Of a stretch of 56,309 nt of DNA, positions 21,324 to 52,740 are shown one piece after another; the first letter of the stretch is position 1, and each line of letters begins with the position of its first letter. Source of the stretch: Clostridiales bacterium Firm_07. Lineage in GTDB: Bacteria; Bacillota; Clostridia; Oscillospirales; CAG-272. The translations under genes were made by a program, and so were the position numbers. The DNA is taken from the NCBI GenBank assembly GCA_001604005.1, contig LVAM01000009.1:1-56309 (forward strand), in the 5' to 3' direction. The notes beneath the pieces are model-generated. The model did no database searches, was not told the DNA's origin, and worked only from the letters and a program-made list of their open reading frames with translations.

Positions 21324-22694
21324 TTACCATTCCCTGAGATCCTTCAATTCATTCCGGTAATCCTTATAGCAGAAGATCAGGGCAACGACCGCGGACAGAA
21401 CGGTAGTTACCGTGGCAGAATAGATAATGCCGTACATACCGAATATCCAGCTCATCAGGAACAGAACCGGGATATAAAAGATCCCTTTCTCCAGCAGAGA
21501 AACGATCACTGCCCGGGTAGACTTGCCGGATGCCTGGAGATAAGTGGTACAGATCTGGTAAAAGCCGAGGAATGGGCCGATCACGATGGAGGCCAGCAGG
21601 CAGACCCGGCCGATCTCCAGAACTTCAGGATTGTCCAGGAAAGCGTTGAGCAGCGGATCCCGGAAAAGCAGGCACAGGAGCGACAAGACAGTGCCGGCGA
21701 TCACAGCAAGGCCGGTTGTCTTCGCCAGAATCTCCGTCAGCCGCTTATGGTTCTTTGAACTGTAATTGAAGGAAATGGCGGGCTGCATACCCATGCAGAT
21801 CCCCATGACGGTCATGGAGATCATCTGCGCGATACGTCCTGCCACGCTCTGCCCGGCCACTGCCACGGAACCGTACTGCATCATCAGATTGTTGACGATG
21901 GTGCCGGACACACTGCCAAGTACCGTGGCGCAGCTCATGGGAAGGCCCAGACTGATGACAGGCCGGATGACATCTTTCTTCAGGGAAAGGTCCTTTGGAA
22001 AGGCTGAATAAATCTTCCCCTTCGTGCGGAGGAAATATATATAGTAGCAGAGGCTGACCGCATTTGCTGCCACAGTGGCAATAGCCGCACCGGATACGCC
22101 CATGCCGAGCACGGAAATCAGCAGCGGGTCCAGAGCAATGTTCAGCACTGTTCCCAGCATGTTGCCGATCATGGAATCGGTGGTGGAGCCGTCGGCCCGG
22201 ATCAGAGCCGGCACAACGTTGGTCAGCATGATTACCGGCGCACCGATGGCGATGACCCGCAGGTATTCAGCGGTGAACCCCCGGGTCTCTTCGTTGGCAC
22301 CCAGCAGGGAACAGATCGGATTCATGAGGGGAAGTACCACGCCAAGGAAGACCAAGCCGATGACGATTGCTCCCCAGACGGAAAAAGCGCTGATTTTACG
22401 AATCCTGCCATACTCTCCTTTGCCCAGAGCCAGGGAGATCGCGGTACAGCCGCCGTTGCCCAGAAGCACGCCCAGGCCGGACAGAATGGAGAACATAGGG
22501 GAGGCCAGCGTGACGGCGGCAACTTTATTGGGGTCGCCGGTCTGACCGATAAAAAACACGTCCGCCATGTGATAGAGAACCATCACCAGCATGATCAGAA
22601 CCGCCGGGACGCAGAGCTTGCCCACCAAGGTCCGGAACGGACCGGAGCGAAGCATTTCCTCATTTGTATTTGAAACTTTTTTCTCTTTTGCCAT
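21324..22694 (-). CDS. MATE family efflux transporter, first gene of a glycosidase operon
   Basis: 456 residues with about 12 membrane segments; a NorM/DinF-like cation-coupled exporter (opening LRSGPFRTLVGKLCVPAVLIMLVMVLYHMADVFFIGQ). Start ATG 22694 follows GGGAGGAAG; a longer frame to 22811 runs over the operator half-sites and promoter and is not translated. It is the promoter-proximal gene of the MATE-GH3-GH1-GH78 operon under a TGTCGGAT-type promoter. Uptake is covered by the ABC genes, so an exporter here may remove something released by the glycosidases, such as an aglycone. That is inference. Confidence 0.9.
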   Translation of the reverse strand: MAKEKKVSNTNEEMLRSGPFRTLVGKLCVPAVLIMLVMVLYHMADVFFIGQTGDPNKVAAVTLASPMFSILSGLGVLLGNGGCTAISLALGKGEYGRIRKISAFSVWGAIVIGLVFLGVVLPLMNPICSLLGANEETRGFTAEYLRVIAIGAPVIMLTNVVPALIRADGSTTDSMIGNMLGTVLNIALDPLLISVLGMGVSGAAIATVAANAVSLCYYIYFLRTKGKIYSAFPKDLSLKKDVIRPVISLGLPMSCATVLGSVSGTIVNNLMMQYGSVAVAGQSVAGRIAQMISMTVMGICMGMQPAISFNYSSKNHKRLTEILAKTTGLAVIAGTVLSLLCLLFRDPLLNAFLDNPEVLEIGRVCLLASIVIGPFLGFYQICTTYLQASGKSTRAVIVSLLEKGIFYIPVLFLMSWIFGMYGIIYSATVTTVLSAVVALIFCYKDYRNELKDLREW

Positions 22695-22746: not shown

Positions 22747-22810
22747 ATTTTATAGATTTCCTTTTTCCCCGTCTTTTTCTCATCCGACAAATACTTCCAC
22801 AAATCCGACA
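22747..22810 (-). promoter_or_regulatory. TGTCGGAT tandem operator and promoter, leftward (MATE-GH3-GH1-GH78)
   Basis: On the minus strand TGTCGGAT cores at 22805-22810 and 22784-22789 (TGTCGG positions) lie 21 bp apart, same orientation. TAAAAT (22747-22752) begins 31 nt after the second core. No -35 box is needed if the second site places an AraC-type activator against polymerase. Candidate binder: the response regulator at 33503-34273. Confidence 0.8.
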
Positions 22811-22833
22811 TTTTACAGGAGCTTTCGGAAGAA

Positions 22834-22897
22834 TGTCGGTTTTCTGTTATTTTTTGTCGGATAACACAAAGATTTTCGCTGAACGAATTGGTATCCT
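22834..22897 (+). promoter_or_regulatory. TGTCGG tandem operator and promoter, rightward (yesL-like operon)
   Basis: TGTCGG at 22834-22839 and 22855-22860, 21 bp apart; extended -10 TGGTATCCT with hexamer at 22892-22897, again 31 nt after the second core. It lies back to back with the leftward site; the inner cores of the two pairs are 23 nt apart, so four monomer sites fill the divergent intergenic region. Confidence 0.8.
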
Positions 22898-22927
22898 TTT
22901 TTCAGACAAGGCAGAGGAGGACCCTAT

Positions 22928-23614
22928 ATGCAAATATTCAATCCGGACAGTAAGTTCTCCCAGTTTATTTACGGTGCCGCGGATTATGTGAAACTTGGAC
23001 TGGTTTTCCTGCTGTTCTCGATTCCCGGGATCACCGCCGGAGCCGCTGCGGCAGCCGTAATGACAGTGGGTATGCGCATCGAACGGAAGGAAGCACCGAC
23101 GATTTTCCGGCCTTTCTGGCAGGCATTTAGGGACAATTTCAGGCAGGGAACGGTACTGACGCTGATTTTCATGCTTGTATTCGGCTTTCTGGCGGCGGAC
23201 TGGTACGTGCTGATGCAGACCGAGCAGACGCTGCTGATCCGCCTGATCTGCGCTTTCATTTTCGTGCTGGCTCTGCTGACCGCGAGCCTGATGCTCTGGG
23301 TGTTTCCCACACTGGCAAGGTTTTCCCTGACAAACCGGCAGATCATCCACAACGCGGTAATCCACATGCTTTCCCGTTTTCCCCAGACGCTGCTGGCACT
23401 GGTCGCGGCAGTGGGCGGATTCATTCTGGCCGCTTTCTTTCCGCAGGTGCTGCCGGTTATTACCTTCTTCGTTCCGGCGTTTGTGGTGTGGTATATGTCC
23501 CGGACGTGTGTGAAGCGTTTCCGCAAGTTTGACAGAAGCTTGGAGGGGGAACAGGAAGAAGCGGCGCGGGAAAAGTCGCCTCAGGAAAATTTACAGACGA
23601 ATCAACTGAATTGA
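22928..23614 (+). CDS. YesL-like DUF624 membrane protein
   Basis: 228 residues with about five hydrophobic segments and a charged C-terminal tail; matches the DUF624/YesL pattern (opening FNPDSKFSQFIYGAADYVKLGLVFLLFSIPGITAGAA). YesL proteins are found next to YesM/YesN kinases and LplB-type permeases in glycan loci, as in the Bacillus subtilis rhamnogalacturonan region; their exact task is not settled, though an accessory role in sugar uptake or sensing is likely. GAGGAGG precedes ATG 22928. First gene after the rightward TGTCGG promoter; GH78 follows about 40 nt on. Confidence 0.85.
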   Translation: MQIFNPDSKFSQFIYGAADYVKLGLVFLLFSIPGITAGAAAAAVMTVGMRIERKEAPTIFRPFWQAFRDNFRQGTVLTLIFMLVFGFLAADWYVLMQTEQTLLIRLICAFIFVLALLTASLMLWVFPTLARFSLTNRQIIHNAVIHMLSRFPQTLLALVAAVGGFILAAFFPQVLPVITFFVPAFVVWYMSRTCVKRFRKFDRSLEGEQEEAAREKSPQENLQTNQLN

Positions 23615-23653
23615 CGCGCTGCACGGAACAGTCCCATGAGAGGTTTTGATAGG

Positions 23654-25909
23654 ATGATCAGAAATGCCGTCCTGCCTGCCTGGCAGGCAAAATGGATCGA
23701 CCCGGAATTGCCCCATGAACCGGAAAAGAAGCAGCCCGCTTCCTATCTGCGCCGACGGTTCACCACAAAAATGCCCGGCAGCGCATGCCTGTATATTACC
23801 TGCCACGGCTTGTATGCCGCTTATCTGAACGGACAGCGGGTGGGCGATTTTGTGCTGGCTCCCGGCACCGGGGATTACAGACAGCGGCTGACGGTGCAGT
23901 GCTACGATGTGACCGAGCTGCTGAAAGCGGGCGAAAACGAACTGACCGTTATTCTGGGCGACGGCTGGTATCGCGGCGGCGTGGGCGTGGACGGACTGCG
24001 AAACTATTGCGGCTCCGACATTGCTTTGCTCTGCCAGCTGGAAATGAACGGGCAGCCTGTTCTTTTTAGCGATGAGCATTGGGAAGCCTCCCAGCAGGGG
24101 CCGATCCGGGAAAACGACCTGGAAATCGGGGAGAATTATGACGCGCGGCTGGAAGCGATTTCCGAGTGGCACGGCGTGACTGTGCGGGACTTCGGCTTTG
24201 CCCATCTGGCTCCCACCGAAAGCGTACCCATCCTGGAGCAGGAGCGCTTCCCCGGCAAGCTCATCAAAACACCCAATGGGGAAACGGTCATCGACTTTGG
24301 ACAGAACCTGGCGGGATATACGGAGCTGTGTGTACAGGCGAAGGCCGGACAGAAAATTACGATCTGGCATGGCGAGACCCTTGATGAAAATGGTAATTTC
24401 ACACAGTCCAATTACAACCCCACCTGGCGCAGCCAGAATGGCGGCGTACCTCAGCGGATCGATTATATCTGCAAGGACGGCCTAAATGAATACAAGCCAA
24501 GCTTTACGATCATGGGCTTCCGATATGCCAAAGTGGAGACCGACGCCGATCTGACGGATGCCCGGTTTACCGCTATCGCCGTGTATTCCTATATGCCGCA
24601 GGTGGGCTTCTTTACCTGCGGCAGCGCGGATGTGAATCAGCTGTTCCACAACTGCCTGTGGAGCATGCGCTCCAATTTCTGCGATATTCCCACCGATTGC
24701 CCCACCCGGGAGCGCGCGGGCTGGACGGGCGACGCCGGGCTGTTCGCCCCCACCGCCGTCTATCTGGCGGACTGTTATCCCATCCTGCGCAAGTGGCTGG
24801 GCGAATGCCGCCTGGCCCAGGAGGAAAACGGCCTGGTGGCCAACATCGCGCCCATCAACGATAAGCGCGACCAGATCGCCCTGATGCTCCAGGGCAGCGC
24901 GGGCTGGGGCGACGCCTGCATTCTGGTGCCCTGGGCGCTGTATCAGGCCTATGGGGACAAAACGATTCTAAAAGAAAACTATGGGATGATGACCGGCTGG
25001 CTGTCCTTCTGCGAAAACCGCGCGAAGGAGACCCGGCCCCGGAACGAAGCGAACCCCTGGAAAGAATTCCTGATCGACACGGGCTTCCATTGGGGAGAAT
25101 GGCTGGAGCCGGGCCATGTGATGCCGGAGGAAATGCGGAAAAACATGATGGAGGGCGTGCCGGACGTGGCGACGGCCTATTACTTCCGTTCCGCTTCCCT
25201 GCTGTCCCAGATCGCTGAAATCCTAGGAAAGCCCAAGGACGCCGCGCGCTTTGCGCACATCGCCGAAAACGCGAAGAAAGCCTTCCGTTTTACCTGCACG
25301 GACGGCGGTAAAATCACCTCTGACCGCCAATGCCAGTGTGTGCGGCCCATTGCCTTTGGATTGCTGAATGGAGAAGAAAACCAACAGGCGGCGGACGCGC
25401 TGAACGAGCTGGTGATCAAAAACGGGTATCACCTGAACACCGGCTTCCTGTCCACGCCGGACCTGTGCCGGGTGCTGGCTGATTACGGGCACGTCGATAC
25501 CGCCTATCGTCTGCTGCTCCAGGAGAGCTGCCCCGGCTGGCTTTACGCTGTCAAAAAAGGCGCTACCACCATCTGGGAAACCTGGGACGGCGTGCGGCCC
25601 GACGGTACGGTACACGATTCCCTCAATCATTATGCTTACGGAGCCATCTGCGGCTGGCTGATGGGCGGCGTGTGCGGTATTCAACTGGAAGGGAGCAAGC
25701 TGACCATCCATCCCTATCCACACCCCTCCCTGGGACATGCGGAGGCGACATGGCTGTCTCCGGTGGGCGAGATCCGCAGCGGATGGCGCTATGCCGATCA
25801 TCGGCTCCATTTTGAATTCACCGTCCCGATTCCCGCTGAAATCATCCTGCCAGGCAGCGGAATGTATCAGGTGAAAGCAGGCACGTACAGCTTTGAGGTG
25901 CTTCAGTAA
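23654..25909 (+). CDS. GH78 alpha-L-rhamnosidase
   Basis: 751 residues, cytoplasmic. N-terminal accessory beta domains (YLRRRFTTKMPGSACLYITCHGLYAAYLNGQRVGD), then the (alpha/alpha)6 barrel with the active-site stretch DCPTRERAGWTGD (D348, E353) and the C-terminal TIWETWDG with E642, matching the catalytic acid and base regions of GH78. It would release terminal alpha-L-rhamnose by inversion. Start ATG 23654 is preferred because GAGAGG is 9 nt before it; ATG 23636 has only a weak site. A paralogue lies at 40604-42769, and a rhamnose pathway at 49026-52549. Confidence 0.93.
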   Translation: MIRNAVLPAWQAKWIDPELPHEPEKKQPASYLRRRFTTKMPGSACLYITCHGLYAAYLNGQRVGDFVLAPGTGDYRQRLTVQCYDVTELLKAGENELTVILGDGWYRGGVGVDGLRNYCGSDIALLCQLEMNGQPVLFSDEHWEASQQGPIRENDLEIGENYDARLEAISEWHGVTVRDFGFAHLAPTESVPILEQERFPGKLIKTPNGETVIDFGQNLAGYTELCVQAKAGQKITIWHGETLDENGNFTQSNYNPTWRSQNGGVPQRIDYICKDGLNEYKPSFTIMGFRYAKVETDADLTDARFTAIAVYSYMPQVGFFTCGSADVNQLFHNCLWSMRSNFCDIPTDCPTRERAGWTGDAGLFAPTAVYLADCYPILRKWLGECRLAQEENGLVANIAPINDKRDQIALMLQGSAGWGDACILVPWALYQAYGDKTILKENYGMMTGWLSFCENRAKETRPRNEANPWKEFLIDTGFHWGEWLEPGHVMPEEMRKNMMEGVPDVATAYYFRSASLLSQIAEILGKPKDAARFAHIAENAKKAFRFTCTDGGKITSDRQCQCVRPIAFGLLNGEENQQAADALNELVIKNGYHLNTGFLSTPDLCRVLADYGHVDTAYRLLLQESCPGWLYAVKKGATTIWETWDGVRPDGTVHDSLNHYAYGAICGWLMGGVCGIQLEGSKLTIHPYPHPSLGHAEATWLSPVGEIRSGWRYADHRLHFEFTVPIPAEIILPGSGMYQVKAGTYSFEVLQ

Positions 25910-25962
25910 CAGCGCAAACCGGCAAAGCGAAAACAAAAAACATGGTTTGAGGAGGAATCAAC

Positions 25963-28083
25963 ATGGCCAAGACGATCTATGACCCCAAACAGGATGCCCG
26001 TTTCCAGTATCCGATAATCGACCAGGACGAATGGCGGGAGCGGCATCTGCCGGGCGGCGAAACCATTCCCTTCCGCTATCTGCACGGATATTTTGAGGGG
26101 ACGGATGTAAAGTTCTCCTTCTGCTTCCCGCCTGCAGACCGGTATGAAGGCCGGTTCCAGCAGTATCTGTCTCCCTTCCCCGGGCCGGATGAGGAAGTGG
26201 CTTCCCTGGGTCACACCGGCCTGGAAGACCGCGTCGGCTTCGCGCTCAAATGCGGCGCTTACTATGTGGAAACCAACATGGGTTCCCATTCTCAGTTCGG
26301 CGGAGACCGGGACGATAAGCTGACCTGGCAGTCCTCCGCGGCGGCGGCGGAATTCTCCCGGGTAAAGGCCATGGAGATTTACGAAACATCCCAGCGGCCT
26401 TACGGCTATGTCTATGGCGGCAGCGGCGGCGGCTATAAATCCATGGCCTGCATCGAAAACACTTCCGCCTGGGACGGGGCCGCGCCCTTCGTGATCGGCT
26501 CTCCCGTCAGCCTGCCCAACACCATTACCATGCACGTGCAGGGCCAGCGAGTACTGCGCAACGCTTTTGCCAAAATCCTGGATGCCCTGGATGCGGGTGG
26601 CAGCGGCGATCCCTACAAAGAGCTGAACAAGGACGAAGCGGATATGCTGCGGGAGCTGACGAAGATGGGCTTTCCGCCGCTGGCCTGGTACATGGAAGCC
26701 AAGGGTGTCATTGATCCCGGTGCGCTGCCGGTGCTGCTGCCTGCCATGAGAGGCCTTGACCCCACCTATTTCACTGATTTTTGGACCAAGCCGGGCTATG
26801 CCGGGGCCGATCCCCAAAGCAGCGCTTCCAAGGATCGCATTTATTTCCGTACCAAAGTAAAGTCCGTGCACCTGACTGAGAAAACGGAGAAACGGGATGC
26901 CGAGGACGGCCAGAACGGCGTGGACGATTCCTATAAAAAGCAGGCGGTCAAGGGCGACGGGGCTTATCTGGAATTGGAAACGCTGCCGCTGGGGGACAAC
27001 CTGTATCTGGAAGGCCTTTCGATGATTTTCCAAACCGGGGACGCCCAGGGAGCCGCCCTGCTCATGGACAAGATGATGCGCTTTAACGACAGCGAAGGCG
27101 GCATCGTGACCATCGGCGAATGCTATGGCATGAGTGACCTGGATGAAACCCTGCGGAAAGTGAAGCCCGGTGATGAGATCCTGCTGGACAATTCCGATTA
27201 TATTGCCGCCCAGAGCTATTATCGCCATCAGGTGCCGGCGGACCTGTCCTTCCATGCCTGGGATCAGTTCCGCAATCCGGACGGCACGCCCAAAACGCCC
27301 CAGCGTGCCCCCTTCCCGGTGCCGTTTACAGGCGTCGGACTGCCGCAGGACGGCGATATTCAGGGCAAGGTCATCAATATCCAGGCTCTGATGGATGAAA
27401 GCACCTGCCCCTGGTGCGCCGATTGGTGGCGGAACAAGATCATCGAGACCAAGGGCACCGACGAAAACCATCGCACCTATTTCATGGAACGCTGCATGCA
27501 CGGCGATATCAACGCCATTGGCAATTACGTGGTGGTCAATTATGTGGGCGCGCTGCGTCAGGCGCTGATCGACCTCTCTGCCTGGGTGGAAAAGGGAATC
27601 GCGCCGCTGAACCGCACCACATATACCCTGGGTGAAGACGGACAGATCCACACGGAGCTGGATGTGAGCAAGCGCTACGGCATCCAGGGCATCCCGACCT
27701 TGAAGGCCAACGGAGAAAAATGCGCCCATGTGAAGGTGGGCCAGTGCGTGCGCTTCACCGTGGACGTGGAAGTACCGCAGGACGCGGGCGTCGTGACGGA
27801 AATCCTCTTCGCCCAGAAGGAAAAGGAACTGGCTGCCAAGGATACGGAAAGCAACGGTGTGGCTCGGCTGATGCTGGGCGAGGATATGTGGGATGGCGCA
27901 CTGACCTTTGAAAAGGACGAAAAGAACGGAATCCATACTGCCCATGCGGAGACCGTTGGCTGCTATGACAAGCCCGGAACATACTTTGCCACTGTGCGTA
28001 TTGCCACCAACCGGGAAGGAGATCCGTCCAGGGTGTTCACCCAGGTACTGAACCTGGACCGGGCACGGATTGTCGTTTCATAA
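25963..28083 (+). CDS. Putative large alpha/beta-hydrolase, uncharacterised family
   Basis: 706 residues, no signal peptide, no family I can name with confidence. A nucleophile elbow GGSGGGYKS gives S154. Far downstream, D478 in ALMDESTCPW and H513 in RCMHGDINAI, followed by ALIDLSAWVEKGIAPL, resemble the acid-histidine end of tannase/feruloyl-esterase-like hydrolases. If right, a ~320-residue insert separates Ser from Asp and would form a big lid. A C-terminal beta-rich domain (about 550-706) follows. It sits after the GH78 gene in the rightward operon, suggesting an esterase or lactonase for acylated glycosides. GGAGGA precedes ATG 25963. Substrate unknown. Confidence 0.5.
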   Translation: MAKTIYDPKQDARFQYPIIDQDEWRERHLPGGETIPFRYLHGYFEGTDVKFSFCFPPADRYEGRFQQYLSPFPGPDEEVASLGHTGLEDRVGFALKCGAYYVETNMGSHSQFGGDRDDKLTWQSSAAAAEFSRVKAMEIYETSQRPYGYVYGGSGGGYKSMACIENTSAWDGAAPFVIGSPVSLPNTITMHVQGQRVLRNAFAKILDALDAGGSGDPYKELNKDEADMLRELTKMGFPPLAWYMEAKGVIDPGALPVLLPAMRGLDPTYFTDFWTKPGYAGADPQSSASKDRIYFRTKVKSVHLTEKTEKRDAEDGQNGVDDSYKKQAVKGDGAYLELETLPLGDNLYLEGLSMIFQTGDAQGAALLMDKMMRFNDSEGGIVTIGECYGMSDLDETLRKVKPGDEILLDNSDYIAAQSYYRHQVPADLSFHAWDQFRNPDGTPKTPQRAPFPVPFTGVGLPQDGDIQGKVINIQALMDESTCPWCADWWRNKIIETKGTDENHRTYFMERCMHGDINAIGNYVVVNYVGALRQALIDLSAWVEKGIAPLNRTTYTLGEDGQIHTELDVSKRYGIQGIPTLKANGEKCAHVKVGQCVRFTVDVEVPQDAGVVTEILFAQKEKELAAKDTESNGVARLMLGEDMWDGALTFEKDEKNGIHTAHAETVGCYDKPGTYFATVRIATNREGDPSRVFTQVLNLDRARIVVS

Positions 28084-28115
28084 CGGCGCCGATTCGGACA
28101 AAACGAGTCCGATCA

Positions 28116-28179
28116 TGTCGGATTTACTGTATTTTTGGTCGGATTTCTCAAAGAATAATTTTTTTCGATTGAGTATGAT
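28116..28179 (+). promoter_or_regulatory. TGTCGGAT tandem operator and promoter of the ABC importer
   Basis: TGTCGG at 28116-28121 and GGTCGG at 28137-28142, 21 bp apart, each followed by AT; -10 TATGAT at 28174-28179, 31 nt after the second core. A small hairpin (28092-28114, GGAC/GTCC core) without a T-run precedes it, so read-through from the upstream operon is also possible. Confidence 0.8.
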
Positions 28180-28246
28180 GGTCATATCGGCAGGATATTT
28201 ATGAGTTCAATAACCTGAAGGATTCGGAAAGGAGACGGAAACGAAG

Positions 28247-30031
28247 ATGTCCATTCGTGCAAAATGGATCGCGCTGATGGCGGCTGTGGTGGTACTGCTG
28301 GTCGGCATGCAGGTGTACTACGGCAATATCGGCGGTACAGGCGACCAGAGTGCGTCCCCGGAAACCACCTTTGACTGGTGGATCTATTCCGGTACGTCAT
28401 CAGAATACTACGGAAACTATGCTGAGAATCCGGCGATCCAGTATACCTTGCGGAAAGGCTGGGGCCCGGAGGAGAAGGGAATTGCCCTGAGCTTCCTGCA
28501 GCCGCCTCCCGGTTCTGAAGCTGATAACTATGCCACCATGATCGCTTCCGGTGACCTGCCGGACATCATTGACGCCGTGATCTGCGACCCGCCGCAGATT
28601 ATGGTGGAGAGAGGCTACGCGATCGAGCTGACTGATTATGTGGAAGCCCATATGCCGAATTACAGGGAACTGGTGCATTCCAACAACGAAGTGTATATCA
28701 ATACGGTTGTTGTGGATGATGACGGCAAGGAGCATTATTATAACCTGGCGGTCGTTCATGAGGGATACGATACCGTGTTCCAGGGTTATATGTACCGCAG
28801 GGACTGGATCGTAAAATACGGCACCAATCCCGTTACCGGCGCTGCCTTTACCGGCGGCTATACCGATCCCGCCGATGTGGACAGCTGGGTGGATGACGTG
28901 GTTTTCCCCTCCGGCGGCAAAGATCCCATCTATATTTCCGACTGGGAATGGATGTTTGAGATCTTTACCCGGGCGCAGGCAGACCTGGGCATTACCGGAA
29001 AGTACTGCATGAGCCTGTATTATCCCGGGTTTACCTGGTCCGGCGGCCTGCTGAGCTGCTTCGGAGGCGGCGTGAACGTGTGGTACCAGGACGCGGATTC
29101 AAAGGTGCATTTCGGCGGCAACGAAGAACCTTTCAAGACATACCTGGAGTGTATGCATGCCTGGTATGAAAAGGGCTGGCTGGATCATGATTTCAACCAG
29201 CGCACTTCAGACGCTTTCTACCAGATCGACTCCACTTCCGTGCGCCAGGGTATGATCGGTATGTGGAACGGCCAGCAGAGTGAACTGGGCGGCCGACTGG
29301 ATATGCATGACGGCGGATATACCGAAGGTATTTTTGTGGCAGGTACACCCTATCCGATCAACGACATATACGGGCCGGAAAGCTGCCGGAACGTGGTACC
29401 CAACTGCCTGATGGGCAGCGGACTGACCAGCGGAGGCATCCTGATTACCCCCAAAGCCGCGGATAAAGACCTGGCTGCCCTGTGCAGCTATCTGGATTAC
29501 TTCTACACGACAGAAGGCGCGCTGATCAAAACGCTGGGACTGAATGCGGAGCAGGCAGCAGATTTCAGCGAAAACACCTTCTATGCCGACAATGGCCTGA
29601 CGGGCGGCGCGTATCACATCGGCGCTGACGGACGGTATCGCAAGGATGACGTGCTGGTCCATGACAGCGGCCAGCTGAACACCGCCGTGGGCTTCAATAA
29701 GGCGCCGGGCCTGCACCTTGTCAACAGTGTGGACCTTGGCTATGCAGACAGTTACCAGGCTTCCCTGGATACGTGGATGAAATATCCCAATACGGGTTTC
29801 TTCTGGGGCAGCCGTACCACCAATGCTTTCAGCCAGGAGGATGCCAAAACGATTACGGATATCCAATCCAAAGTGCTGGAATACATGACCAAGAACTGTG
29901 CCAACTTTATAACCGGCAAATCCAACTTCGACAAGGACTGGGACAAATGGAGCACAGTCATCAAAAAGTATAAAGTAGACAGCATTTCCGAGCTCCTGCA
30001 AACTTATGTTGACAAATATCCTTTCCGATAA
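28247..30031 (+). CDS. ABC transporter extracellular sugar-binding protein (LplA/YtcQ type)
   Basis: 594 residues, the size of the large clostridial solute-binding proteins paired with LplB/YtcP permeases. The N-terminus (KWIALMAAVVVLLVGMQVYYG) is one hydrophobic segment, but there is no cysteine, so no lipobox; it is probably held by an uncleaved anchor. The body has many aromatic residues (FDWWIYSGTSSEYYGNY, DWEWMFEIF) as in oligosaccharide binders. RBS AAAGGAG precedes ATG 28247. First gene of the importer operon, directly behind a TGTCGGAT promoter. Ligand is inferred to be a rhamnose-containing oligosaccharide. Confidence 0.88.
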   Translation: MSIRAKWIALMAAVVVLLVGMQVYYGNIGGTGDQSASPETTFDWWIYSGTSSEYYGNYAENPAIQYTLRKGWGPEEKGIALSFLQPPPGSEADNYATMIASGDLPDIIDAVICDPPQIMVERGYAIELTDYVEAHMPNYRELVHSNNEVYINTVVVDDDGKEHYYNLAVVHEGYDTVFQGYMYRRDWIVKYGTNPVTGAAFTGGYTDPADVDSWVDDVVFPSGGKDPIYISDWEWMFEIFTRAQADLGITGKYCMSLYYPGFTWSGGLLSCFGGGVNVWYQDADSKVHFGGNEEPFKTYLECMHAWYEKGWLDHDFNQRTSDAFYQIDSTSVRQGMIGMWNGQQSELGGRLDMHDGGYTEGIFVAGTPYPINDIYGPESCRNVVPNCLMGSGLTSGGILITPKAADKDLAALCSYLDYFYTTEGALIKTLGLNAEQAADFSENTFYADNGLTGGAYHIGADGRYRKDDVLVHDSGQLNTAVGFNKAPGLHLVNSVDLGYADSYQASLDTWMKYPNTGFFWGSRTTNAFSQEDAKTITDIQSKVLEYMTKNCANFITGKSNFDKDWDKWSTVIKKYKVDSISELLQTYVDKYPFR

Positions 30032-30050
30032 GCGACAGGAGGTGTGACAC

Positions 30051-31007
30051 ATGGCAAAAAAGAATTCCTATGACCTGGCTGCGTCCTCCCGCCGGAGCTG
30101 GAAGACGGAGCTGAAGCGGGACTGGGTCGTGTATATGCTGTTCCTTCCCATCATCATTTATGAGATCGTACTGCATTACCTGCCCATGTTCGGCATTGTG
30201 ATGGCCTTCCAGGATTACAACGTAGTGGATGGTTACTTTCATTCTCCCTGGGTAGGACTGAAGCACTTTATTGATCTGTTCAGCGGCGAAGACTTCCTTC
30301 AGGCGATCCGCAATACCGTGGTTATCGGTGTGATGCGTGCAACCTTCGGTTTTGTCGCACCTATTATCTTCGCGCTGATGCTGAGCCTGATCAATTCCAA
30401 GAAATTCAAACGCACTGCCCAGACTATGAGCTACATGCCCAACTTTGTGGCGGCGGTCATCGTCTGTTCCCTGTTTACCCAGTTCCTGGCCAAGGACGGA
30501 CCGCTGACACTGCTTTTGTCAAAGGTATTCGAAGCGGAAAATCAAAACTGGTTTGCTAACGATAAACCTCCTGTCTTCTGGATTATTTACCTCCTGATGG
30601 GCATCTGGCAGAGCATCGGCTGGGGATCCATCATGTATGTTGCAGCTATTTCCCAGGTCAGCGGGGACCTGCATGAAGCGGCTGCCCTGGACGGAGCAAC
30701 CCGTCTGCAGCGGCTGTTCAGAATTACCCTGCCCAGCATCCTGCCCATGATCCTGATGATGTTTGTGATCAATGTGGGCACCGCGCTGGCGGCAGGTTAT
30801 GACAATATCCTGCTGCTGTACATGCCCAGCACCTACAACGTGTCCGATACCGTGTACACCTACACCTACCGCCAGGCTTTCGGCGCGGGCAACAGCAATT
30901 ACTCCCTGTCTGCAGCCTCCGGCCTGTTCCAGTCCGTCGTTTCCACGATTCTTCTGGTGGGTTCCAATGCGCTGTCGCGTAAGGCCGCCGGAAGCAGCCT
31001 GTTCTGA
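30051..31007 (+). CDS. Sugar ABC transporter permease, LplB family
   Basis: 318 residues, six membrane segments, with the permease EAA loop (HEAAALDGATRLQRLFRITLP) that contacts the ATPase. Opening motif FLPIIIYEIVLHYLPMFGIVMAFQDYN is typical of LplB. AGGAGG before ATG 30051, 19 nt after the binding protein. It forms a heterodimer with the next permease. Confidence 0.95.
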   Translation: MAKKNSYDLAASSRRSWKTELKRDWVVYMLFLPIIIYEIVLHYLPMFGIVMAFQDYNVVDGYFHSPWVGLKHFIDLFSGEDFLQAIRNTVVIGVMRATFGFVAPIIFALMLSLINSKKFKRTAQTMSYMPNFVAAVIVCSLFTQFLAKDGPLTLLLSKVFEAENQNWFANDKPPVFWIIYLLMGIWQSIGWGSIMYVAAISQVSGDLHEAAALDGATRLQRLFRITLPSILPMILMMFVINVGTALAAGYDNILLLYMPSTYNVSDTVYTYTYRQAFGAGNSNYSLSAASGLFQSVVSTILLVGSNALSRKAAGSSLF

Positions 31008-31021
31008 GAGGAGGAATCACC

Positions 31022-31933
31022 ATGGCAAGAAAGCAAAGAAAAAAGGAAGAATGGGAAAATAACATGGTTGAAACCAAGTCCGTGGCGGATCGGGTCGTGG
31101 ACGTCATCGTGTATGCCTGCGTGGCACTGGTTGCGCTGTGCAGCGTGATTCCCATGTGGCACGTACTCATGTCCTCCTTCTCGGACGGAAAATCCCTGCT
31201 GGCGCATGTCGGCCTGGTGCTGTGGCCTGTAGGAGGTTTCACACTGGACGGTTATTCCCTGATCTTCCAGAACTCCAGCATTGTAGGCGGCTACATCAAC
31301 ACCATCATTTATACCGTTGCCTTCGTCACCATCGGTTTCCTGCTCTCAGCCGTAACAGGCTACGCCCTGAGCCGGGATACCAAACTGAAGAAGCCGGTGA
31401 CCATGGCGCTGATGATCACAATGCTTTTCGGCGGCGGCATGGTGCCCACCTACATGGTGATCCGTGCCCTGGGCTGGGTCGGCACCCCATGGGCGCTGGT
31501 TATCCCGGGCTGCACCAACTCCATGTACTGCATCATGATGATGAACGCCTTCAATTCCATTCCCAAGGAAATGTATGAAGCCAGCCACATCGACGGAGCA
31601 GGCCACCTTTCCACCCTGTTTGAAATCACCCTGCCCCAGGCGATGAATATGGGCAGCGTGATCATCCTGAACCTGACCATCGGCCAGTGGAATTCGTGGC
31701 TGCCTGCCAGCATCTATGTGCCCAACAAGAAGGTTCTGTGGCCGCTGCAGCTGGTCATCCGCCAGATCACAAGTGAAAACGCCGATTTCCTGAACTCCTC
31801 CAATCCCAACTACAGCCGTTACCTGATTCAGTTCGCGGTGATCATCGCCGCTATCGCCCCCATTATCATCGCGTTCCCGTTCTTCCAGGACAAGATGGAA
31901 AAGGGCGTGATCCAGGGCGGTGTCAAAGGCTGA
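31022..31933 (+). CDS. Sugar ABC transporter permease, YtcP/LplC family
   Basis: 303 residues, six membrane segments; EAA loop YEASHIDGAGHLSTLFEITLP. GAGGAGG before ATG 31022, 14 nt after the first permease. No ATPase gene is in the window, which fits this class: they borrow a shared MsmX-type ATPase encoded elsewhere. A terminator follows. Confidence 0.95.
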   Translation: MARKQRKKEEWENNMVETKSVADRVVDVIVYACVALVALCSVIPMWHVLMSSFSDGKSLLAHVGLVLWPVGGFTLDGYSLIFQNSSIVGGYINTIIYTVAFVTIGFLLSAVTGYALSRDTKLKKPVTMALMITMLFGGGMVPTYMVIRALGWVGTPWALVIPGCTNSMYCIMMMNAFNSIPKEMYEASHIDGAGHLSTLFEITLPQAMNMGSVIILNLTIGQWNSWLPASIYVPNKKVLWPLQLVIRQITSENADFLNSSNPNYSRYLIQFAVIIAAIAPIIIAFPFFQDKMEKGVIQGGVKG

Positions 31934-31945
31934 AGCCTTTTCCGG

Positions 31946-31978
31946 AAAGCAGTCCGTTCGCGGGCTGCTTTTTTTGCT
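31946..31978 (+). terminator. Intrinsic terminator of the importer operon
   Basis: 11-bp stem AAAGCAGTCCG (31946-31956) / CGGGCTGCTTT (31961-31971) with one G-T pair and a TTCG tetraloop, then a T-run. Confidence 0.92.
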
Positions 31979-32007
31979 TTGCAGGAAACCGGGATTCCAG
32001 GTATAAT
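31978..32007 (+). promoter_or_regulatory. Constitutive-type promoter of the kinase-regulator pair
   Basis: TTTGCA (31978-31983), 18-nt spacer, perfect TATAAT (32002-32007), 57 nt before the kinase start. No TGTCGGAT sites here, so the sensor genes look independent of the regulon they are thought to control. Confidence 0.65.
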
Positions 32008-32063
32008 AAACATTGACAGTTCCCTGGATCAACCGGATATTTACCACATGGGAGGATGCTTGC

Positions 32064-33506
32064 ATGAAGGAGCATTCAGCCTTATATCGATGGCTCTGGT
32101 TCCGGCCTGTGTTTCGGCGCCTCCGCCCACGGCTGATGACGATGATCTTTGCGCTGGTTCTCCCGGTCAGCCTGGTCTGCCTGGCACTCTCCGCAGTCTC
32201 TATCATCCAGTCCCGCGAAGCTGTTAACAGCATGAGCCAGAATGCCCTCAGCTTTTATCTGGACCAGGTGGCGCTGCGCCAGGAGCTGGGCGATATCGAC
32301 GTGATGACGGATTTCCCCGCCGGCCTGGCACCCAGCCTGACACTGCTGCACTGGAACGCGGATCAGCCTGACGCCCGCGTGGACAACGGCAGCAGCGTGT
32401 ATGTTTCAAAGGACGGAGAACAGGCGTTCCTGATCCTTTCGGACGGGACATGGCGGGAGGAAGAACGGCCTTTTGCTTCCCTGAAGCAGGAGCGGAACAG
32501 CTTCCTGTGGGAAAAGGATGGTGAGCCTTTCCGGGTACTGGTTACTTTCCCCTATGATTTTTCCCTGCAGAATATCCCTGCCTGGTTCTGGATCGCCCAG
32601 GGGATTGCCCTGCTGACAATCCTGGTCAGTCCGGTTCTGTACGGAAGACTGAAAAAGGATATTCTGGAGCCGATGGAAACAATGCATGACGCCATCTCCG
32701 CCTTCCAGAGAGACCGGTCCTACAGGATTCCGCAGGCCCCCCTGGCCGTGAGCGATGACTTCCGACGGCTGTTCGACCATTTCAACGCCATGGCCGCAGA
32801 AGTGCAGCAGGGATATGAGAAAGATGTGAAGCTGCTGGAATCAGAAATGGACAATCTGCGCCTGCAGGTGAACCCGCACATGCTTCTGAATTCTTACAAT
32901 ATGATTTACGCTCTGGCTGAATCGAAAAACTACACCACCATCCAGGATTACACCCTGTGCCTGGCGGATTATTTCCGCTACGTGCTGCGGAAGGGACAGC
33001 AGATGGTGACAGTACGGCAGGAACTGGAGTTCGTGGAGAACTTTATCCGCATCCAGCGCATCCGCTTCCCAGACCGGTTCTCTTACGTATACCAGGCGAA
33101 GGAGGACTGCCTGTCCGCCCTGATCCCGCCGCTGCTGATTGAAAACTTTGTGGAGAACGCCATCAAGTACGCGCTGAACCCCAAGGAACCCATTGAAATT
33201 GTGGTGTCCGTTCACCGGGAGGAAAACGAGGCCGGAAAGGATACCCTGCATATCGCCATCATGGATACGGGCAGCGGCATCCGTCCGGAGGTATTGGAAA
33301 AGCTGCAAAAGAAGGAACCCTACATTGATGAGGCGGGACAGAAACATATCGGCATTTATAACTGCCTGCGCCGGGTGGAGCTGTTTTACGGCGATGAGGG
33401 CGATATTCATTTTTCCAGCGCGGTGGGCGGCGGCACGCAGGTTTATTTGATCATTCCATTTTCTCTCTCTGCTGATCTCAGCACAGGACGGGAGGCGCGC
33501 GCATGA
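32064..33506 (+). CDS. YesM-type sensor histidine kinase
   Basis: 480 residues. Two membrane segments (about 23-47 and 172-193) flank an external sensor part of about 125 residues, then a HAMP-like linker, the His_kinase domain with H272 in QVNPHMLLNS, and an ATPase domain with N-box LIENFVENAIKYAL and GSGI. It phosphorylates the response regulator encoded next. The sensor part is short compared with the large dCache domains of many YesM proteins. ATG 32064 follows GGGAGGATG; an in-frame start at 32013 is too close to the promoter. Its stop overlaps the regulator start by 4 nt (ATGA). Confidence 0.94.
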   Translation: MKEHSALYRWLWFRPVFRRLRPRLMTMIFALVLPVSLVCLALSAVSIIQSREAVNSMSQNALSFYLDQVALRQELGDIDVMTDFPAGLAPSLTLLHWNADQPDARVDNGSSVYVSKDGEQAFLILSDGTWREEERPFASLKQERNSFLWEKDGEPFRVLVTFPYDFSLQNIPAWFWIAQGIALLTILVSPVLYGRLKKDILEPMETMHDAISAFQRDRSYRIPQAPLAVSDDFRRLFDHFNAMAAEVQQGYEKDVKLLESEMDNLRLQVNPHMLLNSYNMIYALAESKNYTTIQDYTLCLADYFRYVLRKGQQMVTVRQELEFVENFIRIQRIRFPDRFSYVYQAKEDCLSALIPPLLIENFVENAIKYALNPKEPIEIVVSVHREENEAGKDTLHIAIMDTGSGIRPEVLEKLQKKEPYIDEAGQKHIGIYNCLRRVELFYGDEGDIHFSSAVGGGTQVYLIIPFSLSADLSTGREARA

Positions 33507-34273
33507 ATATTCTGATTGTTGACGATGAAGAACTGGCTGTTCAGGGTATCCTGGATGGGGTCAACTGGGAACAATTAAGCTTTGACAAGGTGCTCACGGC
33601 CCGGAGCTATGAGGACGCGGTGAGCATATTCGGCAATACCTATATCGACATCCTGGTCAGCGATATTGAAATGCCCGGGGAAAGCGGCCTCAAGCTGATC
33701 GAATACGTGAATACCCACAGTCCGAACACCGAATGCATCATCCTGAGCTGTCACGATGAATTTGATTACGCTCAGGCGGCCGTACGGCTCAACTGCATGG
33801 AGTATGTGCTCAAACCCATCCGCTATCAAAAGCTGACGGAGATCCTGATGCGCGCAAGGGAACGGTCTGCCCAGCGGCGCAGAACGGAGCAGATCCAGCA
33901 CTATGGGCAGCAATATATCGACGCTCTGGCGAAAGAATCCCGCAGTGATTCCGCCAATGCCCTGGATACAGCCGTGCAGTATATTGACAGCCACCTGACG
34001 GACGAGCTGTCCGTGCGGGAGCTGGCTTCGGTATGCTTTATCAGCGCCGATCATCTGACGCGGCTGTTTAAAAAGAAGTTTGGCGTGTCGGTTTCCGAAT
34101 ACATCCAGGAGCGGCGCATCCGCCTGGCGGGAGAACTGATGCGCCATCAGGATATGACGATTTCCATGGTGGCCAACAAGGTAGGCTTCGGCAATTATTC
34201 CTACTTTACGGAGCAATTTAAAAAGTATTTCGGCGTCACGCCCAGGGAGTATCAAAAGAAGATGCAGGAATAA
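33503..34273 (+). CDS. YesN-type response regulator with AraC DNA-binding domain
   Basis: 256 residues. Receiver domain 1-120 with acidic pair DD7-8, phospho-acceptor D54 in SDIEMPGESG and the switch lysine in VLKPIRY. AraC-type double helix-turn-helix at about 150-256 (LSVRELASVCFISADHLTRL and ISMVANKVGFGNYSYFTEQF). There is no long middle region, so it is the compact form. The start ATG overlaps the kinase stop. The nearest TGTCGGAT site starts 5 nt after its stop; AraC proteins bind two tandem sub-sites about 21 bp apart, exactly the spacing seen at four promoters here. Predicted activator of the island. Confidence 0.94.
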   Translation: MNILIVDDEELAVQGILDGVNWEQLSFDKVLTARSYEDAVSIFGNTYIDILVSDIEMPGESGLKLIEYVNTHSPNTECIILSCHDEFDYAQAAVRLNCMEYVLKPIRYQKLTEILMRARERSAQRRRTEQIQHYGQQYIDALAKESRSDSANALDTAVQYIDSHLTDELSVRELASVCFISADHLTRLFKKKFGVSVSEYIQERRIRLAGELMRHQDMTISMVANKVGFGNYSYFTEQFKKYFGVTPREYQKKMQE

Positions 34274-34277
34274 AACA

Positions 34278-34341
34278 TGTCGGATTTATGGGATTTTATG
34301 TCGGATTTCGTACAGAATTCCAGGGCGGGAAATGGCATAAT
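34278..34341 (+). promoter_or_regulatory. TGTCGGAT tandem operator and promoter of the secreted protein/GH/rhamnose operon
   Basis: TGTCGG at 34278-34283 and 34299-34304, 21 bp apart, both continued as GATTT; extended -10 TGGCATAAT with hexamer 34336-34341, 31 nt after the second core. This is the best-conserved pair in the window. Confidence 0.82.
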
Positions 34342-34406: not shown

Positions 34407-35471
34407 ATGATGAAAAAGATCGCTGCCCTGCTGCTCTGCATGATGCTGTGCCTGTCCGCTGTATCTTTCGCCGCGGCGGAGGACGTGCCAAACCTGGCCG
34501 GCACCTACTATTCCTACGGCTATGACGTCGGAACCATGTTCATGAACTACTACTTCCATTTCTATGATGAAATCCCCGGACTGGGCAAGGTTTTCCATGC
34601 CGGTATGTGCATGGACCAGATCTGCTTCGACGGTACCTACGAGGTGCTGGCTGAAGAACGTGCTTATAATGTGGCGATGGACCGCGCTGCCAGCGAAGCA
34701 GGCACCCTGACCGAGGGCACCGCACCTTACACCGTCGTCTTCTATGATTTTGCCGGCAATGAGCTGGATCGGTGCGCCATGGATGCTGAGCATATCTACA
34801 ATGATATGGTGAATATCACCGGTATCGGCGGCGGAAACTGCGCCCTGAATCTGGATACCGATCCTGAGAACAGCAAGTTTGCCGCCCAGTATGCCGGCGA
34901 ACCCGCTGTCTCTTTCCTCTCCCTGGTCAATCCCGAGGACGATACTGCCACCCTGGAACTGAAAGTCAACGGCAAGTATGACGACCTGGTGGTGCTGTTT
35001 GTGGAAGGCACCTACGCCATGAACGAGGATCAGACTGTCATCACACTGACCCCTGATTCCGAAGATGACTCCGGTGCTACTGTGACCAAGAACGAGGATG
35101 GCACCTACACCTACGTTTCCACTGACGGCGACGAAGTAACCCTGGCGGAAGTGAAGGGTGTGGAAGTGGCCTATGCCCTGAAGGGCGAGATTCCTGTACC
35201 CGGCATGGATGGAACGAACGCAGACTTTATCTGCAACCTGTACAGCGACAACACCGTACGCCTGTATGCTGACTTCATGGGCAACCAGATGGATGTGGAC
35301 AAGGGCACCTATGAAATCGACATGGCCACCTATTCCTTCATCCTGCACTTTGAAAACGCCGGCGATATGACCACCGAAGGCTATGCTGCCGATATGGTGC
35401 TCAATTACAAGGTCGCTGAGGTAGCTCCCTTCGGCGCTATCGAGCAGACCCTGAAGTTTGTGACCGAATAA
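34407..35471 (+). CDS. Secreted acidic protein of unknown function
   Basis: 354 residues. Signal peptide (MMKKIAALLLCMMLCLSAVSFAAAED) with a likely cut after AAA. The mature part is acidic, rich in Thr, Tyr, Gly and Asp, with beta-strand-like repeats; the last ~85 residues (NADFICNLYSDNTVRLYADFMGN onward) read as a small beta-barrel-type unit. No known domain recognised. It is the first gene after the strongest-looking TGTCGGAT promoter, and a leaky terminator follows, so it may be made in large amounts. Possible roles: glycan binding at the surface, or help for the binding protein. AAGGAG before ATG 34407. Confidence 0.7.
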   Translation: MMKKIAALLLCMMLCLSAVSFAAAEDVPNLAGTYYSYGYDVGTMFMNYYFHFYDEIPGLGKVFHAGMCMDQICFDGTYEVLAEERAYNVAMDRAASEAGTLTEGTAPYTVVFYDFAGNELDRCAMDAEHIYNDMVNITGIGGGNCALNLDTDPENSKFAAQYAGEPAVSFLSLVNPEDDTATLELKVNGKYDDLVVLFVEGTYAMNEDQTVITLTPDSEDDSGATVTKNEDGTYTYVSTDGDEVTLAEVKGVEVAYALKGEIPVPGMDGTNADFICNLYSDNTVRLYADFMGNQMDVDKGTYEIDMATYSFILHFENAGDMTTEGYAADMVLNYKVAEVAPFGAIEQTLKFVTE

Positions 35472-35560: not shown

Positions 35561-36625
35561 ATGCAGCACGCATTTTATCCCGGTCGGGAATGGCTGGATA
35601 CCAACGGTAAGCCCATCCAGGCCCACGGCGGCAGTATTCTGATTTCGGATGGCTGCTATTATTGGTATGGCGAAAACAAGGAAAAGACCGATGGAAAAAA
35701 CAGCATCTGGCACTGGGGCGTGCGCTGCTACCGTTCCAACGACCTGTATAATTGGGAAGACTGCGGGCTGATCATCCCGCCGGATGAGAAAGACGAGCGT
35801 TCGCCCCTGCATCCCGCCAGCATGATGGACCGGCCCCATATCCTCTATAACGCACGGACGAGAAAGTATGTGTGCTGGCTGAAAATCATGGAGAAGAACG
35901 GAGAACAGACCGAAACAGTGCTGACTGCGGATCATCTGTCTGGACCGTATACGATTGTCCGCAAAGGACTGCGCCCGCTGGGCATGAGCGCCGGGGATTT
36001 CGACCTGTCCGCTGCGCCGGATGGGAAAGGCTACTATTTCTTTGAGCGGGTGCACAGTGAAACCATCATCGCCGATCTGACGGAGGATTATACCGATGTG
36101 ACGGGGTATTATTCCACCCATTTTCCCCAGCCCCAGCCGCCCCTTGTGCGGGAAGCTACGGCTCATTTTATCCGTCATGGCAAGCATTATCTGGTCACCA
36201 GCGGTACCACAGGTTACCTGCCCAATCCTTCCCAAATCGCCGTAGCGGATACCTGGCATGGGCCGTATCGGGTGCTGGGAGACCCCCATCCGGGCGACGA
36301 AAGCCAAACCTCCTTCCATTCCCAGATCACCTCAGTATTCAAAGTACCGGGCAAAAAAGATCTGTATATTGCTTTGGCGGACCGCTGGGCACCGGCATTT
36401 ATGCACCTGCGTTATCAGGATTACGGCGAATGGTTCCGTCTGCGGTTTGCGGAAGAAAGAACGCCTGCGGAAGAAGCCCGCATGGCGGAATTGCAGAAGC
36501 TGCTGCCTCCCGACAGTGCAATGGATACCTCCAAAGCGCGCTATGTGTGGCTGCCTTTCCGCTTTGAGGGGGAAATGGGTATCCTGGACTGGCGGGAACA
36601 ATGGAGCCTGGATGAATTTGAATAA
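35561..36625 (+). CDS. GH43-like glycosidase (exo-galactanase-like)
   Basis: 354 residues, cytoplasmic, five-bladed beta-propeller pattern of GH43: YYWYGENKE, RSNDLYNWEDCG, MDRPHILYN, then FDLSAAPDGKGYYFFER (the pKa-tuning Asp region) and REATAHFIRHGKHYLVTSGTTGY with the probable acid Glu. The N-terminal catalytic Asp of classic GH43 is not evident, as in GH43 subfamily 24 exo-beta-1,3-galactanases, which the EAxAxF-SGTTG stretch resembles. GAAGGAGG precedes ATG 35561. Substrate is inferred as a galactose- or arabinose-containing side chain. Confidence 0.72.
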   Translation: MQHAFYPGREWLDTNGKPIQAHGGSILISDGCYYWYGENKEKTDGKNSIWHWGVRCYRSNDLYNWEDCGLIIPPDEKDERSPLHPASMMDRPHILYNARTRKYVCWLKIMEKNGEQTETVLTADHLSGPYTIVRKGLRPLGMSAGDFDLSAAPDGKGYYFFERVHSETIIADLTEDYTDVTGYYSTHFPQPQPPLVREATAHFIRHGKHYLVTSGTTGYLPNPSQIAVADTWHGPYRVLGDPHPGDESQTSFHSQITSVFKVPGKKDLYIALADRWAPAFMHLRYQDYGEWFRLRFAEERTPAEEARMAELQKLLPPDSAMDTSKARYVWLPFRFEGEMGILDWREQWSLDEFE

Positions 36626-36639
36626 GGGGTGTGGCAGAA

Positions 36640-45287: not shown

Positions 45288-45307
45288 AAAATAGGAGCGT
45301 GACGGGT

Positions 45308-48286: not shown

Positions 48287-48335
48287 AAGAGAGTTTTCAT
48301 GCAATTGAACAAGGATATAAATCGAGGTGAGAGAA

Positions 48336-51724: not shown

Positions 51725-51736
51725 GGAGAACACAAC

Positions 51737-52704: not shown

Positions 52705-52740
52705 AAAACCCGGATCCGGTAGACGGGATCCGGGGTTTTT
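52705..52740 (+). terminator. Intrinsic terminator after the rhamnose operon
   Basis: AAAACCCGGATCC and GGATCCGGGGTTTTT pair with one bulge around an 8-nt loop (52718-52725) and end in T5. The 155 nt between rhaD and this hairpin hold nothing recognisable. Confidence 0.85.

Follow-up and report, generated by a model that had tools for sequence, protein, structure and literature searches.

In a 56,309-nt stretch of DNA from Clostridiales bacterium Firm_07 (GCA_001604005.1, contig LVAM01000009.1; hereafter the window), four promoters near the gene of a YesN-type response regulator each carry two same-strand copies of the half-site TGTCGGAT in a fixed arrangement. We conclude, with a probability of roughly 0.88, that these four sites are bound by the locally encoded regulator, which would be fed by its neighbouring YesM-type sensor kinase and activate four transcription units in the class II manner, the kinase-regulator pair itself lying outside the circuit. 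The sites, their geometry, their conservation, their near-confinement to target genes and their co-occurrence with the regulator are established by sequence. From these we infer regulator binding, phosphorylation, activation and co-transcription to the far end of the longest unit. A single two-component regulator thus appears to switch on four neighbouring promoters, serving sugar uptake, digestion of plant glycosides, rhamnose use and an exporter, in gut Clostridia that come mostly from ruminants.

A preliminary description of the window had reported four promoters with two same-strand TGTCGG or GGTCGG cores each, spaced by 21 bp, with a -10-like hexamer 31 nt past the second core and an AAAGA-like stretch following the second half-site. 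Direct reading together with a pattern search of the window confirmed all four elements: the core pairs are present (Table 1), the spacing is exact and the hexamer distance holds at every site, and the stretches read AAAGAC, AAAGAT, AAAGAA and ACAGAA. Searching the window for TGTCGGAT-N13-TGTCGGAT with up to three mismatches returned five matches, whereas 100 dinucleotide shuffles averaged 0.51 and never gave as many as five. The fifth match, at 8547, has three mismatches and looks like chance. The single 7-mer TGTCGGA was not enriched in the window (9 occurrences against 6.8 expected; 9 was reached by 25 of the 100 shuffles). With single cores at chance level and pairs enriched, the signal therefore lies in the tandem geometry.

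To follow the sites into related genomes, a comparison that the preliminary description had proposed, we scanned a genome collection with the regulator. This gave 76 loci, 27 of which (L061-L087) have a regulator at 47-98% identity (over partial length for L087), and gene order around the regulator is conserved in most of these 27. Among relatives carrying the regulator, the tandem site was found ahead of the binding-protein gene in 18 of 18 orthologous regions, ahead of p354 in 21 of 21, and on both strands of the divergent exporter region in 8 of 8. These counts cover loci whose flanking genes lie on the fetched stretch, with L077 excluded as the same region and genome as L076; in L082 the p354 region spans 2.1 kb, more than the length of one gene. 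Regulator identity is merely 53-54% in L081 and L082. In 19 of the 21 loci, no more than 20 bp separate the start of the p354 site from the point where the regulator match ends. Between the two divergent sites the gap varies, from about 12 to 25 bp by coordinates, and they are therefore probably two independent sites rather than one complex.

We analysed 59 sites, 55 from relatives and four from the window. Six sites are absent from a first set of 54: the importer sites of L071, L073, L076 and L078 (4-5 mismatches), one on the exporter side in L080, and one ahead of p706 in L082; the 59-site set restores the first five, and the L082 p706 site, with AATAAT as -10 at 32 nt and TGTAAT at 29 nt, is in neither. 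Differences from two copies of TGTCGGAT number 0-3 in 54 of the 59 sites and 4-5 in the other five. Both arms keep CGG in all 59, TCGG in 58 and TCGGA in 52; at the DUF624 sites the first arm is mostly TCGGT. Across 21 loci including the window (421 kb), 48 of 51 same-strand core pairs lying 8-80 bp apart are spaced by exactly 21 bp, with one each at 30, 37 and 51 bp, and a control with the pattern written backwards gave 0.

The promoters share more than the repeat. At all 59 sites a hexamer with at least four of six -10 matches (A at position 2, T at position 6) starts 31 or 32 nt past the second core, and in 49.8 of the 59 (ties split) it ranks first among all hexamers within 10-61 nt. In 500 mononucleotide shuffles, where any pair of neighbouring positions was allowed, the mean was 5.4 and the maximum 8.4; the earlier 54-site set gave the same -10 picture. 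The -35 boxes are poor, the best match being 1 or 2 of 6 in 43 sites, 3 in 11 and 4 in 5. Overlapping the -35 place is an AAAGA/C-like block, at 13-17 nt counted from where the proximal core begins, with A and G nearly invariant at 15 and 16 nt, which we read as a putative box B of the proximal sub-site. Box A is present in both sub-sites, and box B is clear proximally; distally it is seen only in the exporter promoter. There, L063 and L064 repeat the block in the distal arm at the corresponding position (TGTCGGAT-N5-AAAGA twice), an argument for a single 18-bp sub-site that occurs two times over. With the -10 numbered -12 to -7, the cores occupy about -49 to -44 (proximal) and about -70 to -65 (distal). 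Several traits of an AraC/XylS class II promoter are present: same-strand sub-sites about 21 bp apart, a proximal sub-site that reaches the -35 region, a fixed -10 distance and a poor -35.

Random occurrence of the motif genome-wide had been named beforehand as an outcome that would speak against a regulon. We searched 20 genomes carrying a regulator orthologue (a set without the genomes of L072 and L084) with the relaxed pattern KRTCGGAW-N13-KRTCGGAW and obtained 48 matches in 19 of them, while the backwards control pattern gave 0 matches in all 20. Manual reading of the list assigned 39 of the 48 to the regulator locus, either by position on its contig or, in fragmented assemblies, by identical sequence. 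One more, in G057 (L149:1143-2669), lies on the locus contig 24 kb onward from the importer site and has a -10 at 32 nt; it precedes a gene for a Fucose_iso_C-type, sugar isomerase-like protein, followed by a transketolase-like gene. This protein shares merely 29% identity over 123 residues with the window isomerase, which therefore supports a sugar isomerase-like target and not orthology. The other eight matches are elsewhere: a single G046 repeat accounts for five, G054 for two and G058 for one. With 39 (+1) of the 48 matches belonging to the locus and none in the control, random occurrence is contradicted. The G046 repeat (G046:C4:59285-59544) is a short array of related 21-bp units (GGTCGGATCGACCGGCGG) and a source of false motif matches.

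A scattered background does exist. Of the 393 other genomes sampled from the order to which the window's assembly belongs, 64 have matches (71 places), the regulator being found in none of the 393 (E 1e-55), and the backwards control also gives scattered matches in 394 genomes of the order. In the family of G055 (150 genomes), seven genomes have the regulator at 75% identity or more; the strict pattern detects the locus sites in six of these, and a relaxed one does so in G046 (L071). Such matches in unrelated genomes, together with the one at 8547 and the G046 repeat family that mimics the pattern, are what could be said for the repeats being chance or a mobile-repeat artefact. We find this hardly credible at all, given the shuffle and backwards controls, the fixed -10 distance at every site and the lack of an Rfam match when the window was searched for an RNA element between 22000 and 35000. 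Conservation at a fixed promoter distance already contradicts it.

A search of the window's own assembly (G000) with the pattern found, at zero mismatches, the four window sites only. However, the window contig is probably mis-binned in that assembly, because the two Tex genes of the assembly differ in kinship and the kinase was not found in congeners. The Tex of the window is 85-86% identical to those of G055 and G047, both with a regulator orthologue, whereas the second Tex of G000, on contig 13, is 77-79% identical to those of two congeners and 59% to the window's. The kinase was found in 0 of 20 congeners of the assembly (E 1e-40) and the regulator in 0 of 393 other genomes sampled from its order (E 1e-55, with at most six candidates scored for each genome listed). 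The own-genome test therefore counts little, and the genome-wide claim rests on the 20 regulator-carrying genomes. The source species is probably akin to the metagenome-assembled genomes with the regulator, mostly from ruminants, and not to the assembly's genus; the finding on the sites is untouched by the mis-binning.

The strongest evidence that the sites would belong to the regulator is their co-occurrence across distant genomes. Some homologues 47-62% identical (L079, L083, L085, L087 and L091, the last two being partial matches outside the regulator alignment) have no convincing sites on their own contigs. We searched the whole genomes of these five, plus those of L081 and L082, for sites with a -10 of at least five of six matches at 31-32 nt and a homologous gene behind. 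Five of the seven (G576, G578, G579, G053 and G054) yielded 10 sites, six of them new, ahead of binding-protein, p706 or p354 homologues. The p706 homologues of L082 and G579 are directly behind their own tandem site; the p354 homologue of G578 is a partial 32% match whose open reading frame (ORF) starts behind the site. In contrast, five genomes with homologues at 33-38% gave nine matches, none with a qualifying -10 and neighbour gene. The motif travels with the regulator, in five of seven genomes at 47-62% identity versus none of five at 33-38%. The recognition-helix strings D(H/Y)LTR.FKK and NYSYFTEQFKK are conserved in the aligned regulators whose genomes retain the motif and differ in the homologues at 47% (L085) and 33% (L088). 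These results favour the earlier interpretation that the sites are those of the local YesN-type regulator and would link exporter, importer, glycosidases and, by inference, rhamnose genes. They suggest a regulon core of importer, p706 and p354, the glycosidases being more variable.

Several observations weigh against this assignment. A G547 match is identical to an importer site, yet no regulator was found in that genome at E 1e-40, and 15 of the 143 genomes of the G055 family without a regulator at 75% or more still have a match. Conversely, no match was found in the genome of G577 (2.6 Mb; L083, 55% identity, same recognition helices) nor in that of G580 (L085, 47%). Box B is weak in the distal sub-site, the exporter promoter excepted; the relatives are not mutually independent, L067/L068/L086 and L076/L078 being nearly identical; and promoters towards the distal end of the large operon may have escaped a simple scan. 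The mismatches between motif and regulator in G547, G577 and G580 would fit a different AraC-type protein, encoded elsewhere, that binds the sites while the local regulator acts on other genes, and such proteins are numerous in these genomes; searching just the window's assembly with the regulator gave 12 matches. We regard this alternative as very improbable: the sites lie in operons beside the regulator gene, the p354 site closely behind its end in most loci, and in distant genomes they still precede the same homologues, none being found where only a 33-38% homologue is present.

Regarding the regulatory genes themselves, the kinase, with His_kinase (PF06580) and HATPase_c domains, adjoins the regulator gene, as is typical of a YesMN-type pair, and the regulator matches a solved yesN helix-turn-helix (HTH) domain and receiver domains of AraC-type regulators. 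The kinase ORF is listed from a TTG at 32013; the promoter position and the point where homology begins place its start at about 32064. The preliminary description had taken the kinase-regulator promoter to be unregulated, and this agrees with its having its own -35/-10 pair and no tandem site in the gap, in the window or in any of the 21 loci with regulator identity of at least 71%. A pair agreeing at 9-11 of 12 positions, in most cases TTTNCA or TATACA with TATAAT, was found in the window and 20 of these 21 loci, and a run of at least five T in the gap of 19. L080, where the importer genes are missing, has a weaker 9/12 pair. The kinase gaps of L081 and L082 show no clear promoter, and that of L081 one weak tandem-like match.

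We propose the following mechanism. The membrane kinase would sense a plant-glycoside signal and phosphorylate the regulator, presumably on D54. Two regulator molecules, arranged head to tail, would then occupy the same DNA face. Each would contact a sub-site of about 17-18 bp composed of box A (TGTCGGAT) and an AAAGA-like box B, and the 21 bp between the sub-sites would correspond to two turns of the helix. Box B of the sub-site nearer the promoter would replace the missing -35, so that RNA polymerase would depend on the regulator, as in class II activation at araBAD. Four units would be switched on together, namely the MATE exporter, DUF624-GH78-p706, the ABC importer, and the glycosidase and rhamnose genes, which form a run of 18 kb, while the kinase-regulator pair, with its own promoter behind a terminator-like hairpin, would stay outside the circuit. 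AraC-type proteins can also act as repressors, and the regulator might bind the same sites to repress, with phosphorylation releasing it. This is very improbable in our view, as the sites are upstream of the -10, at a fixed distance and where the -35 is missing. In Caldicellulosiruptor bescii, five two-component regulators of the AraC type have tandem sites ahead of promoter elements, and 5'-end mapping led to three of them being inferred to be activators, according to the available part of that study (PMC8579813).

The gene content of the four units is consistent with glycoside use (Table 1). The locus has the composition of an importer-centred Firmicutes glycan-utilisation locus: a binding protein (by position only), two permeases, glycosidases and a local regulator. 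The exporter ORF as first listed, from 22811, runs through its own site and had to be corrected; its likely start is at about 22694, behind GGAGG. The MATE exporter is under the same motif as the importer, and MATE homologues adjoin the regulator gene in L079, L087 and L091. For p706, we found no Pfam match, no PDB sequence match and one chance-level NCBIfam hit, and its structural model is poor (mean pLDDT 58); its GGSGGGYK string resembles a hydrolase nucleophile elbow. The p354 protein is probably exported and mostly beta, and its gene is the first behind the tandem site in all 21 regions examined; a fold search with its usable model (79.5) gave matches that are not meaningful, with TM by query length of 0.10-0.18 among the 50 matches listed. 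In L076-L079 the match to the GH2-esterase ends at residue 737 with another gene next, so the esterase is not always fused in these loci, and G057 (L149) retains the fusion.

Table 1 Features of the window around the four tandem sites.
Feature	Position	Strand	Remarks
Tandem site 1	22782..22810	-	TGTCGGAT-N13-TGTCGGAT, 0 mismatches; MATE exporter promoter; -10 TAAAAT 22752-22747
Tandem site 2	22834..22862	+	TGTCGGTT-N13-TGTCGGAT, 1 mismatch; DUF624-GH78-p706 operon promoter; -10 TATCCT 22892-22897
Tandem site 3	28116..28144	+	TGTCGGAT-N13-GGTCGGAT, 1 mismatch; binding protein/permease operon promoter; -10 TATGAT 28174-28179
Tandem site 4	34278..34306	+	TGTCGGAT-N13-TGTCGGAT, 0 mismatches; p354-to-aldolase operon promoter; -10 CATAAT 34336-34341, TGG before the hexamer
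MATE-family exporter	21324..22694	-	PF01554; TIGR00797 above cut-off
DUF624 protein	22928..23614	+	PF04854
Alpha-L-rhamnosidase, GH78 type	23636..25909	+	PF17389, PF08531, PF05592
p706	25963..28083	+	706 residues, conserved; invariant GGSGGGYK
Putative sugar-binding protein, ABC importer	28247..30031	+	Name given by position ahead of two permeases; nothing matched in Pfam or NCBIfam
ABC permease 1	30051..31007	+	PF00528
ABC permease 2	31022..31933	+	PF00528
Terminator-like hairpin, gap between importer operon and kinase gene	31944..31973	+	13-pair stem, then T run; 1 found, 0.5 expected in shuffles
Kinase-regulator promoter	31978..32007	+	TTTGCA-18-TATAAT
YesM-type sensor histidine kinase	32064..33506	+	PF06580, PF02518
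YesN-type response regulator	33503..34273	+	PF00072, PF12833, PF00165; receiver and AraC-type double HTH; candidate phospho-Asp D54; proposed site binder
p354	34407..35471	+	First gene of the large operon; no family match
GH43 glycosidase	35561..36625	+	PF04616
Apiosidase-like glycosidase	36631..38175	+	PF13204, PF16586, PF18310
GH3 glycosidase	38189..40588	+	PF00933, PF01915
Second alpha-L-rhamnosidase (GH78)	40604..42769	+	PF17389
GH2 glycosidase	42783..45287	+	PF02836
GH2 glycosidase fused to BD-FAE/alpha-beta-hydrolase domain	45299..48286	+	
GDSL esterase	48327..49016	+	PF13472
Rhamnose genes	49026..52549	+	Rhamnulokinase-like 49026-50306; atypical sugar isomerase 50300-51724; rhamnulose-1-phosphate aldolase 51737-52549
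Terminator-like hairpin, end of large operon	52709..52734	+	9 pairs, 7 G-C; longest plus-strand stem of the run

The rhamnose genes, named with TIGR02627 below and TIGR02624 above cut-off in NCBIfam, would belong to the regulon by their position at the end of the 18-kb co-directional run and by the hairpin behind the aldolase; promoter-like and terminator-like hits within the run are at chance level in number. A more far-reaching idea is a 'glycoside in, aglycone out' circuit, in which small plant glycosides would be imported and stripped, one step after another, of rhamnose, apiose-like and acyl groups, with MATE export of the aglycone, and in which p706 and p354, two undescribed families, would belong to the core in Lachnospiraceae and rumen Clostridia; we put this forward tentatively, as rather unlikely. 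Elsewhere in the window, a gene at 13850-14596 has a weak Mor-activator-like match (E 3e-4, below the cut-off) and is followed by an AAA_18-type gene.

Binding sites of Firmicutes AraC-type response regulators seem to be rarely known, and here half-sites, spacing, -10 distance and the division into regulated and unregulated promoters are readable from sequence across lineages. This may allow the regulon to be predicted in uncultured rumen bacteria, one genome at a time, and it provisionally places p706 and p354, neither of which has a known family, together with a MATE exporter in one glycoside-utilisation programme. AraC-type two-component regulation of carbohydrate loci is already known; neither the motif nor the regulon described here was met in the open-licence literature searched, and among the papers listed for the motif letters none was judged relevant, which is no proof of the motif being unpublished.

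The geometry resembles that of AraC at araI1-I2, where class II activation relies on a same-strand pair of sub-sites spaced by 21 bp; both consist of an A box and a B box, and the proximal one lies at the -35. Unlike AraC, a one-component sugar-binding protein, the present regulator has an N-terminal receiver domain fed by a kinase. In Bacillus subtilis, YesMN combines a YesM-type kinase and a YesN-type regulator at a rhamnogalacturonan-type locus, the gene content of which differs from that found here. In Clostridium (Ruminiclostridium) cellulolyticum, the kinase and AraC-type regulator XydS/R control a plant-polysaccharide cluster; the accessible portion of that report mentions direct repeats, and sequences alike, that lie ahead of predicted -35 boxes, says that none of the shared sequences resembles the predicted logo, and states that a consensus site of the AraC/XylS family is not known (PMC3572039). 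Unlike for XydS/R, as described in that portion, the site here is defined across genomes. For the Xua system of the same species the authors could identify no conserved sites, according to the available text (PMC12175519), and a comparable xyloglucan locus is on record, again from a partial text (PMC4780118). A further likeness is to the C. bescii regulators, which in the part of the study available also combine an AraC-type domain in a two-component regulator, wide-spacer tandem repeats upstream of promoter elements and local control of importers and glycosidases (PMC8579813). These belong to another lineage, and the examples given there concern other sugars, namely glucuronoxylan, cellulose and mannan (PMC8579813).

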